The notes below the pieces were generated by a model. It saw only the letters and a program-made list of their open reading frames with translations. It did no database searches and was not told the DNA's origin. A stretch of DNA of 64,000 nt. Origin: Brevinematales bacterium. Its GTDB lineage: Bacteria > Spirochaetota > Brevinematia > Brevinematales > Thermospiraceae. The stretch lies in NCBI GenBank assembly GCA_026417555.1, contig JAOADA010000002.1, positions 62,001 through 126,000 on the forward strand, given 5' to 3'. Below are positions 14,239 through 20,300 of this stretch, in pieces (the first letter of the stretch is position 1; each line of letters begins with the position of its first letter). The translations under genes and the position numbers were made by a program.

Positions 14239-15177
14239 ATGCGAGTTTTGGGAATCCTTGCTGTTTTGGGAGCGGCAGCCATATGGGCCTTAGAACCCAT
14301 CATTGCCCGTTTCATAGGAACAGAGGTTTCTTTTGATCATTTGCTTTTTTCTAGGGCAGCAGGATGTGTGGTGATCTCAGGGATAGTGTTTTCCCTTCAA
14401 CACGTGTTTCTCAAACGAAACGTTCCCATCAGGTGGAAAATGCGCCCTCATCATCTTCGTTCTCTTTTCCTTATTGGGGTTTTGGGAAGTTTTTTTTCTG
14501 ACCTTTTGTATTTTATTGCTATCCTCTTTTTTCACACTCCTGTGGTCAATGCTGTCCTTATCGCCCATCTTCAGCCTGTTTTTCTGGTATTGTTTGGGCA
14601 CCTTATCTTCCACGAGGGAAAATTCTCTCTCTGGGATTATGGGGGAATTCTTGCCATGCTTCTTTCTGCTCTCTTTGTTATGAGCGGAAGTCTTTCCAAT
14701 CTCCTTGCTATCCGTTTTGGCAGTCTGGGAGATCTTCTTGTTCTCCTTGCCACACTTTTCTGGGCTCTGTCGGGGCTTTTGGCAAAAAAATACCTCCAGG
14801 ATCTCCCCTCTTCTCTTATTACGTTAAACAGGTTTTTGGTAGCTACTCCTTTCTATTTTCTTTTGGCCCTCATCATGAGTCATTCTCTGCGTCTTTCGTG
14901 GCCTTCGTTGCTGTTTGGGGGGCTCATTGGAATAGGGTATTTCCTCTATTATGAGGGATTGAAGCGTCTCAAAACCGCTCAGGCCGCCGCATTAGAGCTT
15001 GCCTCCCCGGTATTTGCTACAGGATTAGGATTTGCGTTTTTTGGGGAAACCGTTTCCCTCTTCAAATGGATAGGAATTGCCCTCCTTTTTGTGGGTATTT
15101 TTGCTTTCGAAAGGGCTTCTCGATCTCATCCCATGCCGCATGAGACTCTCTCTCCTGGACGTGAGGAAAGCCTCTAA
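14239..15177 (+). CDS. EamA/DMT-superfamily transporter
   Basis: A 312-residue inner-membrane protein with about ten hydrophobic helices in two EamA repeats. Features include AAAIWALEPIIARFIG at the start, HTPVVNAVLIAHLQPVFLVLFG ending the first half, and a matching ELASPVFATGLGFAFFGE in the second. Members export metabolites, amino acids or drugs; the substrate cannot be told. The tail after the last helix is polar. Start ATG 14239 follows AAAGGAGAG. The long folded leader upstream suggests ligand- or attenuation-based control. Confidence 0.85.
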   Translation: MRVLGILAVLGAAAIWALEPIIARFIGTEVSFDHLLFSRAAGCVVISGIVFSLQHVFLKRNVPIRWKMRPHHLRSLFLIGVLGSFFSDLLYFIAILFFHTPVVNAVLIAHLQPVFLVLFGHLIFHEGKFSLWDYGGILAMLLSALFVMSGSLSNLLAIRFGSLGDLLVLLATLFWALSGLLAKKYLQDLPSSLITLNRFLVATPFYFLLALIMSHSLRLSWPSLLFGGLIGIGYFLYYEGLKRLKTAQAAALELASPVFATGLGFAFFGETVSLFKWIGIALLFVGIFAFERASRSHPMPHETLSPGREESL

Positions 15178-15298: not shown

Positions 15299-16162
15299 AT
15301 GATGAGAAAGGTGGTTTTTCTCTTCTGGCTTTTTGCCTTGTCTGGTTGGTGTGTGGATTTCTTTTGGGATATTGAAAAAGCCAAAACCACTGAGGTCGTT
15401 CAGGTTTTTCCTGCCTATCAAAGCACCATCAATTGGACACAGGGAAAAATCCGATGTGAGGTGCGCCTCCCTTTTTCTCCCAACTCTTCCCCTAACATAG
15501 GAAAAACACGTGCCCAGATAGAGAGTGAGGTAAGAAACGAGCTTCGTGATCGGTTGGTCAAAACCATGGGATATGTCCAGATTTCGGATCTCTTTCTCCT
15601 GAGAGATTATTATTCCCTTCAAAGCCAAATACGCAGTGAGCTTTTAGAAGGTGTCAATAATGCCTTTTACTATCCCCTGATTCACGAAAAAAACTTTGTC
15701 AAAGGTATAGCCGAATTGGATTTTTTCGGTCCCAAGGGTATTGCTCAGATCTTCTTCCGAGAGATAGCCCGGGTTTCGCTCTCCTCTTATATACAGAAAC
15801 AACGAGATCTTGCTTGGTATGACGGGGTTATCGTAGATGTTTTCCTCTATAGCCAATTCCTCCCTTCCCTGTATTTTCGTATATATGACGAAGATGGCAA
15901 TCTCATCTATGGTCCTGAGATCGTAGAAGAGAGCGTCCTTCTCAATCAGGGGGTATGTGAATACGTAGCAAGTCTTGGATCTGCGTTTCAAAGTCGTCGT
16001 TTGGGAACAAAGGTTTTTTATGTCGTTCCTCTTTCCCTTCGAGGAAGAAACCCTACCGAGCTTGTTATCAGTCGAAAAGACGCGAGAAAACTCCTTGCTA
16101 ACGCCAAAACCCACGAGGCCCTCAGAGCAGGTCGTGTAGTCGTGGTAAAACCTAACCCGTAG
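15299..16162 (+). CDS. Exported LPP20/FlgT-like protein of unknown function
   Basis: A 287-residue protein with an N-terminal signal (VVFLFWLFALSGWC). Residues 45-150 contain the repeated helix and strand pattern of LPP20-type proteins (ARTQA-like AQIESEVRNELRDRL). The C-terminal part follows a pattern I know from conserved LPP20-like proteins: GVIVDVF, RIYDEDGNLIYGP, then VISRKDARKLLAN and RVVVV. Such proteins are periplasmic or outer-membrane associated, and some take part in flagellar motor structures. The signal ends in CV without a full lipobox, so lipidation is doubtful. The CHAT-like gene starts 9 bp downstream. Confidence 0.65.
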   Translation: MMRKVVFLFWLFALSGWCVDFFWDIEKAKTTEVVQVFPAYQSTINWTQGKIRCEVRLPFSPNSSPNIGKTRAQIESEVRNELRDRLVKTMGYVQISDLFLLRDYYSLQSQIRSELLEGVNNAFYYPLIHEKNFVKGIAELDFFGPKGIAQIFFREIARVSLSSYIQKQRDLAWYDGVIVDVFLYSQFLPSLYFRIYDEDGNLIYGPEIVEESVLLNQGVCEYVASLGSAFQSRRLGTKVFYVVPLSLRGRNPTELVISRKDARKLLANAKTHEALRAGRVVVVKPNP

Positions 16163-16171
16163 AGATGTGGT

Positions 16172-17098
16172 ATGGCCTCTGCCATGGTGTTTTGGTGGGA
16201 AATCCCCTCCCCTCCATCTTTTGCCAACGTCGGTCATACCCTCCTCCAAACCAGAATCAAAACACCTCCTCTCCGCCTGTTTGTCTACCAAAAGCGCTCC
16301 AGTTATATCCGTCTCCAGCTCTCTCAAGAGGATATGCTCTTTGAAGCATATATTCCTTGGGAACGGTGGTCCCTCTTGATTCACAAACTGTCCGCAGGTG
16401 TTTCTCCCCCATTTCCACAAAAAAGGAGTGATGAGGCTTTTGGTCTTTTCTGTGAAGAGTGTCATCTCCCCCTAGAAAGGTTTTTTGCGGCAGGGTGGGT
16501 GCAACTCTACTCCCATGGGGAAATCCCTCTCTGGATATTTCCAGCACATAGAGAAGAGACTCTGTGGGAATTTTTCCTTCCCATAGCCACACGAAAGACC
16601 CTCCCTGACAATGGAAAACGCCTCATCATTGCTGACACTACCCTTGCTCATGCCAGAGAAGAGGTCGATGCCCTTCTTTCCTTAGGGTCTACCGATGTCA
16701 TAGAAGGAGATTTTCTCTTGTCGGTCGTATGGCAAACTCCCTATACCTCTCTCCATGTTATCTCCCACGGAAAAAAGGGATCTCTGCTCATAAACACCCT
16801 GACTCTTTCCTCTCTTCCTGTCCAAGCCAACGATCTGGTCTTTTTCCATTGCTGTGAGATTCTTGACTCCTCACAATCCCTCGCTGCCCACACCCTTTCC
16901 CAGGGAACCCGTTGTGTCATTGCCCCCACAACCCCCATCCCTGACGATGGTGCTCTCCTTCCCTCTCTTCAAGCGTTTTATCAGCTCTATGCTCTTGCCA
17001 ATGCTCGCTACAGTTTTCACGTCACCTCCCTGCTTTTTCCTGCCTTCAAACAAACTTTTCGATTGGCTCTCCCCTATCAGCGTCTCTACATCCCCTAA
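16172..17098 (+). CDS. Compact CHAT-like caspase-fold protease candidate
   Basis: A 308-residue protein. Its C-terminal 180 residues read like a CHAT domain (caspase HetF-associated with TPRs): SLHVISHGKKG with His 199, DLVFFHCCEIL with Cys 228 in the place of the LSACES cysteine, then RCVIAPTTPIPDDGALLPSLQAFY in the place of the usual helix after the second strand. His and Cys would form the catalytic dyad. The first 120 residues are unassigned and hold a CEEC pair. Most CHAT proteins have TPR repeats; this one has none. No signal peptide. The start is weak (no good ribosome site), and ATG 16184 is an alternative. No protein target is known. Confidence 0.55.
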   Translation: MASAMVFWWEIPSPPSFANVGHTLLQTRIKTPPLRLFVYQKRSSYIRLQLSQEDMLFEAYIPWERWSLLIHKLSAGVSPPFPQKRSDEAFGLFCEECHLPLERFFAAGWVQLYSHGEIPLWIFPAHREETLWEFFLPIATRKTLPDNGKRLIIADTTLAHAREEVDALLSLGSTDVIEGDFLLSVVWQTPYTSLHVISHGKKGSLLINTLTLSSLPVQANDLVFFHCCEILDSSQSLAAHTLSQGTRCVIAPTTPIPDDGALLPSLQAFYQLYALANARYSFHVTSLLFPAFKQTFRLALPYQRLYIP

Positions 17099-17106
17099 CC
17101 CAAAAA

Positions 17107-17136
17107 TTGACAAAAAAACCCTGTTCTCCCTACAAT
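17107..17136 (+). promoter_or_regulatory. Promoter of tRNA-Arg(CCT)
   Basis: TTGACA (17107-17112), 18 bp, TACAAT (17131-17136), ten bases before the tRNA. Confidence 0.7.
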
Positions 17137-17220: not shown

Positions 17221-17225
17221 CGTGT

Positions 17226-17264
17226 GGGGATATCCATGGGAGAGGATGTCCCCATCTTTATTTT
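17226..17264 (+). terminator. Terminator after tRNA-Arg(CCT)
   Basis: Stem 17226-17235 with 17244-17253 (GGGGATATCC with GGATGTCCCC, one U-G pair), 8-nt loop, followed by a T-rich stretch. Confidence 0.6.
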
Positions 17265-17278
17265 AGGGGACTCAAAAG

Positions 17279-17307
17279 TTGCCAAGAAACCAAAACCATC
17301 CTATAAT
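17279..17307 (+). promoter_or_regulatory. Promoter of the smc operon
   Basis: TTGCCA (17279-17284), 17 bp, TATAAT (17302-17307), followed by AAGAAGGAG before the ATG at 17335. Confidence 0.7.
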
Positions 17308-17334
17308 AAAAGGCTCTCGGAAGAAGGAGTATTC

Positions 17335-20300
17335 ATGGCACGCTACCTGAAAACCATCGAACTCGATGGCTTTAAGTCTTTTGCTGTCAAGACCACCCTC
17401 GAATGTGTGGATGGCATCACAGGCATTGTAGGAGCAAACGGTTCTGGAAAATCCAATATTGTTGAGGCCATCAAGTGGGTCCTTGGAGAGCAAAGCGCCA
17501 AAAGCCTTCGTGGCGAAAAGATGGAAGATGTTATCTTCAATGGTACTCAAAACCGATCCCCCAAAGGGATGGCAGAAGTCACCCTGACTTTCTCCAATGA
17601 AAATCACTGGCTTCCCCTTGAATTCAATGAAATCAGTATCGCCAGACGTATTTTTCGTTCAGGTGAAGGGCAGTACTTCATCAACAAGTCTCGGGTACGC
17701 CTCAAAGATATTGTCGAGATCTTTCTTGACACAGGCATTGGTCGAGATAGTTATGCCATCTTTGAACAAGGCAAAATTGATCGTCTTCTTTCAGAAAGCC
17801 CTGAAGAGAGACGTCTTCTCTTTGAAGAATTTGCAGGAATCTCCAAGTTTAAATTCAGAAAAGAAGAAGCTGAAAAAAAACTCGAGGCCGCCCGTCTGAA
17901 TCTTGAACGTGTCCAAGATGTGATTATCGAACTCGAAAAAGAACTGATCAAGCTTGAAAAACAAGCAGAAAATGCTCGTCGATACAACGAAATCAAAAAC
18001 GAACTCACGAACTGTGAACTTCGGTTTGAGGTCCTTCGAGTAAAAAACATGCAAGAAGAAATTGATGCCAAAACCACGGAGAAAAATAAACTCGAACAGA
18101 ACCTCATACAAAAACAGGCCAAACTCTCTGAGATTGAAGAAGCCCTCATTTCGCTTGATGAGGAACTTGCACAGAAAGAAACCCAACAAAACGAATGGCG
18201 AGATACCCTTACCTCGTTAGAGAAAAACATCACCGAGTACCAGACCCAACTCAAAGCTAACAAAGAAAGAAAAACCTTCCTTGAAAATCAAATCGAAACT
18301 CTCTCACATCGCCTCGCCGAAGGTATGGAAAGAGAAAAGCTTCTCCGTGACGAATACCAAAAAAAACTCGAGGCTCTCACTACCATTGAAGAGCTCAGAG
18401 AAAGCGCCAAAGAAAAACAGGCTGAGATCCAGCGTCACATCGACGAACTTCACGAGAATATGCGACTCCTGAACCAAGACCTCCTTCACAAATCCCGTGA
18501 GTTAGGTCTGTCCCAAACGGTGACACGAGACCATGTAGATACCCTCAAAAAAGAGATCCTCACTTTAGAATTTCAACGAGACAGCCTCCAGAAAAAACTT
18601 GAAGATCTTTTTCATCAAAAACAAACCATTTCTTCTCAAAAGCAAGAAAAGCTTTCGCTTCTTGAAGAACTCAAACAAAAACGCCAACGTATTGCCCTCG
18701 AGATGCAAGAGATTGCCAATCAGATGCAACAAAACACGAAGGAAGAAACGGATCTCAAGAGAGAAAACCAAAGCCTCTCACAAAGCATCCAGAATCTTCA
18801 GCAAAAACTCAAGACAGTAGATAGGATTATCATTGAATCCCTTGGAAAACAGGCTGAGGAAATCAAGACTTTTTCCCAACAAAAACCCCTGTTAGAAGCC
18901 AAACTCAATGATCTCTTTGCCAAAATCCAGACCTCTCTTGACCATGGTCAGTTCGAGGAAAGCAAGACCTATCTTCACTCTCTTCATGAGCTCTTTCAGA
19001 CAATCCAGTCCTCATATGAACGCATCCTCGGCATCCTCTACAGTGAAGAAGGCACCTACACTCAGAAAGAGCGCATTCAGGAAAACATAGAAGAGATTAC
19101 TGAGGTGATAGAACAAAATCGTCGAAAGATAGAATCCCTCCATGAACGTCTTCGAGAGCTTCATGCCCTCCGAGAAAACATACAAGCCTCCTATGCCCGA
19201 GTTGAGTATGAGGTACAACTCCTTGAAGAAGAAACCAAAAAACTCGAAAGAGAAGAAAACTCCTCGGAAGAAGCCTACGCCCATGTCCAGAATACCCTTT
19301 CACAGTATGGAGAACGAATCCTACAAAAACAAACCCAACTCGAGCGAATCATATCCCTCATTGAGGAGTACGAAACCAACATTGCCGAAACCAAAACGGA
19401 GGTCAATAGAGAAATAGAAAAACTCAACAACCAACGCATAGAAACCGTTCGTATCGATGAACAATACAAATCCCTCTCAAACGAAATCCAAAGGATTGGT
19501 CATCAGATAGAAGACATTGAACGAACCCGGGCAAATTATACCAAAGATATTGAAAACTCTACACACATCATCAAGCAACTCGAGGATATCATTGAAGAAA
19601 CCGAGGAAAAACTCTCCAGCCTTGGGCGTGATCTTGATCATTATCGAAAAAATCTCGCTGAGATTCGTTCTCAGGCAGAAGCCATCCTCAAACAAAGAAA
19701 ATCCCTCGAATCTCTCAGAAAAGACATCGAAGGAGATCTGCAAACCCTCGAAAAACGTATAGGTGGTCTTGAAAATGCCATCCAAGAACGCCACATAAAC
19801 CAAAACACTATCATCAGCCGTATCCAAGAAATCTACAATTGTACGCCGGATGAGGTGGAACTTCAGCCAAAAGACACTATTGATGCTCTTCATAAAACTA
19901 TCAGCAAGCTTCGACAAGATCTTGCTCAATTGGGAGATGTAAACCTTCTCGCCATTGATGAATATCGCAATGCCAAGGAACGCCGAGACTACCTCGAGCA
20001 ACAAAAACAAGACAGTGAAAAAGCCATGTACGATATTGTCAAACTCATCGAAGAAACCAACGAAAAATCTCGCGAACTCTTTGTTTCTTCATTTGAAGCT
20101 ATCCGAAAGTCTTTCCAAAAAATTTTTGCCCGTATGTTTGATGGGGGACGGGCTGACCTCATCCTCGTTGATGAAAACGACGTGTTAAATTCTGGAATCA
20201 ATATCATGGCAGAGCCACCCGGAAAAAAATTCCAATCTATCTCTCTTCTGTCTGGAGGAGAACGGGCCCTTGTGGCTATCTCCGTTATCTTCGCTATTCT

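Follow-up and report, generated by a model that had tools for sequence, protein, structure and literature searches.

The Brevinematales genomes encode a compact CHAT-type protein whose gene is fixed directly behind that of an exported protein, a pairing that is seen only in this order. In the 64,000 bp stretch of Brevinematales DNA analyzed here (the window; contig JAOADA010000002.1, positions 62,001 to 126,000) the second gene of the pair encodes a compact 308-residue CHAT (clan CD) protein with an H199/C228 dyad and a caspase-like fold, and the first encodes an exported relative of Treponema Tp0624, here called the partner. The fixed pairing of the two suggests that the role of the enzyme lies with the cell envelope and not with defence against phage.

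Both open reading frames proposed in the initial annotation are present and are separated by the predicted short gap (Table 1). The upstream EamA-like open reading frame, which from inspection of its sequence we take to be an EamA-type transporter, ends at position 15177, approximately 120 nt before the partner gene, and the tRNA-Arg gene downstream of the pair has a promoter-like site of its own, rated strong, just to its 5' side; a transcription unit of two genes is therefore plausible. The tRNA is the only RNA element found around the pair. To its right, the SMC-like open reading frame (window 17224-17350 for the segment concerned) is called from a GTG codon at 17224, and because its relatives begin at MARYLKTIELDGFKSF the true start is probably an ATG near 17335.

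Table 1. Features of the two-gene locus and its right flank, in window coordinates.
Feature	Coordinates	Strand	Remarks
Exported Tp0624 D1-D2-type protein, 287 aa	15299..16162	+	N-terminal signal peptide; without OmpA domain
Intergenic spacer between partner and CHAT gene, 9 nt	16163..16171	+	Stop-to-start gap
Compact CHAT-type His-Cys peptidase (predicted), 308 aa	16172..17098	+	Without signal peptide; without TPR
Codon of Glu164	16661..16663	+	Aligns with invariant Glu of TPR-CHAT proteins
Codon of predicted catalytic His199 (HG motif)	16766..16768	+	Invariant in all aligned homologues
Codon of predicted catalytic Cys228	16853..16855	+	Invariant in all aligned homologues
Promoter-like site TTGACA-18-TACAAT before tRNA-Arg	17107..17136	+	Separates tRNA from two-gene unit

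The putative catalytic residues lie in the CHAT-like contexts to which the initial annotation had drawn attention, with H199 in HVISHG and C228 in HCCEIL, followed by APTTPIPDDG. Alignment of 13 Brevinematales orthologues from four families (14-58% aa identity to the window protein) reveals eight invariant columns, including H199, G200, C228 and E164, and these four residues are unchanged down to 14-20% identity. The conservation of the dyad is beyond chance, because the window protein contains 11 His and 5 Cys residues and all of them vary other than H199 and C228. Addition of ten CHAT proteins from the Brachyspira-type family and class outgroups, together with six TPR-CHAT proteins, leaves H199, C228 and E164 invariant; the G200 position is Ala in one distant outgroup protein. 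A 365-aa CHAT-like protein of a sister family in the class (L099:6336-7430, genome G014) retains both H and C, with HA for HG, and its gene does not adjoin a Tp0624-like gene.

Taken alone, the window protein is too divergent to be recognized by sequence searches. Neither it nor the partner has a significant match in Pfam (CHAT included), NCBIfam or PADLOC, and searches of the PDB by phmmer with the single CHAT sequence and by hmmsearch with its profile return only noise. The Pfam CHAT family (PF12770) matches six of the 13 members (best E=8.1e-8), and hhalign against six spirochaete TPR-CHAT proteins gives a high probability match (92.6%, E=4.7e-7) in which H aligns with H and C with C. An AlphaFold2 model built from the window and related-locus proteins is of medium confidence (pLDDT 56, pTM 0.61, with most of the core at 60-80), and its best Foldseek matches in the PDB are to the Craspase TPR-CHAT protein (2.1e-5), gingipain R (4.6e-4) and separase (1.4e-3), with all of matches 1-7 belonging to these three types; the structural models of the two proteins rest on six and seven sequences. 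These results bear out the CHAT caspase-fold assignment of the initial annotation, and the two points on which it had staked that assignment, a caspase-like fold and conservation of His 199 and Cys 228 in orthologues, are both found. The reported lack of repeats is likewise confirmed, with no Pfam TPR match in the 308-aa protein, and there is no N-terminal hydrophobic segment; the enzyme is therefore compact and probably cytosolic. We infer both peptidase activity and a cytosolic location.

Several CHAT proteins (PF12770) of described function invite comparison. Csx29, the TPR-CHAT protein of type III-E CRISPR (Craspase), shares with the window protein the caspase-like fold, the HG and Cys motifs, a conserved upstream Glu and an aligned dyad, but the window protein is 308 aa long and lacks TPRs and a CRISPR or gRAMP partner, the Brevinematales proteins have Cys contexts of HCC or NSC rather than SAC and an order-specific Arg297, and their genes are fixed beside an exported-protein gene. 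PADLOC matches no type III-E or other known defence model in any of the 13 members, and the neighbours are housekeeping genes. Borvo, a single-gene CHAT defence system (PMC10952713), is likewise a compact CHAT protease, a comparison that we make by description and not by sequence; unlike Borvo, the Brevinematales CHAT gene is vertically inherited, universal in the order and tied to a fixed partner gene, and has no PADLOC match. HetF of Anabaena, a membrane-bound component of the divisome linked to septal peptidoglycan, is also a CHAT protein tied to the cell envelope (PMC8406250), so that the link to the envelope, proposed initially as a new context, has a partial precedent among CHAT proteins. 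HetF, however, carries a transmembrane segment and TPRs in one chain, whereas neither is present here and the partner is separately encoded. Among the open-access papers searched we found none in which a CHAT gene is described as forming a pair with the gene for a Tp0624 or LPP20 protein.

Other CHAT genes are present in the phylum. At L094:6400-10850 (genome G018) the gene for an exported DUF4384 protein, which matches LPP20 weakly, adjoins that of a 997-aa TPR-CHAT protein whose N-terminus is hydrophobic, and this represents another CHAT-envelope pairing of a different type. At L012:6380-9547 (genome G049, of the Brachyspira-type family) a compact 443-aa CHAT protein (PF12770, 1.5e-11) is encoded between NYN-domain and N-acetylmuramoyl-alanine amidase-like genes, and similar CHAT proteins are present in approximately 25 genomes of this family.

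The partner had been described as an exported LPP20-like protein, and the first part of this description stands while the second needs correction. A signal-peptide-like N-terminus is present in the partner and its orthologues and, of the pair, in the partner only; on sequence grounds the partner looks periplasmic and the CHAT enzyme cytosolic. Pfam LPP20 (PF02169) gives no match at E<=1 in any of the 13 partner members, and the lipobox cysteine is not kept: where the window partner has Cys in SGWC, close relatives carry PLWA and MAWS instead, and several orthologues lack the residue. We therefore reject LPP20 membership. The window's genome (G000) does contain an LPP20 match, the sole one there in a genome search, and it sits at another locus. 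The nearest relative of known structure is domain 2 of Treponema Tp0624 (5jir, chain residues 166-262; E=5.4e-8), to which the C-terminal half of the partner is matched. The nearest structure to the partner model is Helicobacter pylori Lpp20 (5ok8, E=0.09), followed by trigger factor (0.2), both being weak matches that concern the N-terminal domain; the latter agrees with the description of Tp0624 D1 as trigger-factor-like, and D1 and D2 together are a known arrangement of the family, to which treponemes add an OmpA-like domain (PMC5104382). Like Treponema pallidum Tp0624 the partner is exported, but it lacks the C-terminal OmpA-like domain and is followed by the CHAT gene. The partner profile, which covers D1-D2, matches 330 of 393 Spirochaetota genomes (143 of 168 genera), a wider distribution than in the 2016 publication, which gave approximately 50 sequences with D1-D2 but lacking D3.

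Both genes are present in all 13 Brevinematales genomes, with CHAT in single copy; seven of the CHAT matches (G004-G008, G011 and G012) are to proteins absent from the profile that found them. In 12 of the genomes the CHAT gene lies directly behind the partner gene, adjacent and co-oriented. The contigs break in the thirteenth (G011), where the peptidase starts 3 nt past the partner stop codon at the tail of one contig, and both contig ends fit adjacency. Among the orthologous pairs the spacer measures 9 or 3 nt, or else a single base belongs to both the stop and the start codon, and translational coupling of the two genes is therefore plausible.

Every other neighbour changes between the Brevinematales families. 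In the window's group the neighbours are EamA and SMC genes, and G001 has rhamnose genes. Families f2 and f4 have UPF0182 upstream together with a gene for a 140-aa TPR-like protein; rpsB-tsf or aspS is downstream in other genomes, with the f2 pair sitting just before rpsB-tsf. The view of the partner as the only operon neighbour of the CHAT gene thus holds in the window's genus and fails in the eight of 13 genomes with the TPR-like gene directly upstream; the remaining genomes carry the 140-aa gene at another site. Three loci (L062:1086-7082, L063:905-6811 and L064:983-6832) contain a conserved cluster of a 275-aa membrane protein, UPF0182 (1.5e-180), the 140-aa TPR-like protein, the Tp0624-like protein and CHAT; in the window's genus we saw none of the first three close to the pair. 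We also considered a split TPR-CHAT system with the TPR supplied in trans, and set it aside as no more than an idea because the 140-aa gene is upstream in only these eight genomes and its TPR matches are below the cut-off.

At seven partner loci inspected outside the order there is no CHAT neighbour, and other genes flank the partner. The CHAT matches outside the order are of the Brachyspira-type (~440 aa, in an NYN-CHAT-amidase context) or generic. Conservation of the pair across spirochaetes, which the initial annotation had proposed to check, is therefore rejected: it extends throughout the Brevinematales and was not seen beyond, although the partner itself is phylum-wide. Because it is present elsewhere in the phylum with no CHAT neighbour, the partner does not need the peptidase.

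The evidence for the history of the pair is carried by 13 related genomes. In a tree of 29 CHAT domains the Brevinematales proteins are monophyletic (95/92) and the four host families are recovered, and the pairwise distances of the CHAT and partner proteins correlate (r=0.94). The CHAT gene is therefore vertically inherited at a fixed locus in Brevinematales and does not behave as a mobile defence gene would. Of the two products CHAT is the faster evolving, with 58% aa identity in the closest pair against 84% for the partner.

The computations thus show the fold, the dyad, a vertical line of descent and a pair that is exclusively retained. As to function, we give about an even chance to the proposal that the protein is a compact CHAT cysteine endopeptidase, inherited vertically in Brevinematales within a probably coupled unit, which serves the envelope through specific cuts. 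The predicted enzyme would act in the cytosol or on the inner side of the membrane. It would cut, at one specific site or a few, a protein connected with the assembly of the envelope or with the regulation of this assembly, and the two genes would for that reason need matched expression. Known CHAT enzymes are able to cleave a partner at one specific site, as Csx29 does with Csx30 (PMC10028731). Candidate substrates are the exported partner, which could be cut before or during export, and a regulator that governs the same envelope process from the cytosol. The main difficulty for the mechanism is that the predicted compartments of the two products differ. More tentatively, and with rather less than an even chance, the order may have recruited a CHAT peptidase, dedicated to a core envelope protein of spirochaetes, which would process or regulate this periplasmic protein of Tp0624 type in a housekeeping role unconnected with defence.

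Other explanations of the pairing can be weighed against the same observations. The CHAT gene could, in the ancestor of the order, have come to lie behind a housekeeping gene with good expression and been kept there for expression alone, with an unrelated cytosolic role; the independence of the partner from CHAT elsewhere and the position of the f2 pair before rpsB-tsf are consistent with this, but we find it doubtful given that the partner-CHAT junction is retained while every other neighbour has been exchanged between families. Exclusive adjacency, coupling and the differing compartments would all be accounted for if the peptidase cut unexported or misfolded forms of the partner as precursor quality control, since the two would meet only before export. 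Such a role is unlikely, as spirochaetes beyond the order keep the partner with no CHAT neighbour and no order-specific cleavage site is identified. A defence or cell-death peptidase resembling Csx29 or Borvo, switched on by infection to cut a partner and stop growth, is distinctly unlikely: CHAT proteases with known targets do act in defence (Csx29 on Csx30; Borvo) and the Brevinematales protein evolves fast, but a single-copy gene at a fixed locus in 13 of 13 genomes, with a tree tracking the host families, is unlike the patchy distribution of mobile genes, the partner is a phylum-wide protein, and there is no PADLOC match. Finally, a catalytically dead CHAT scaffold would be in keeping with the divergence of the region and of a window protein below Pfam detection, but is very improbable because H199 and C228, which a dead enzyme would not need, are invariant in 13 divergent orthologues.

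To our knowledge, the CHAT peptidases of known role act mostly in defence or cell death, HetF being the exception that we found. A small CHAT peptidase that is universal in an order, and fixed beside a phylum-wide protein predicted to be periplasmic, would offer a testable example of a housekeeping, envelope-linked caspase-like enzyme, and the CHAT-partner pair provides a genetic lead on the Tp0624 family.
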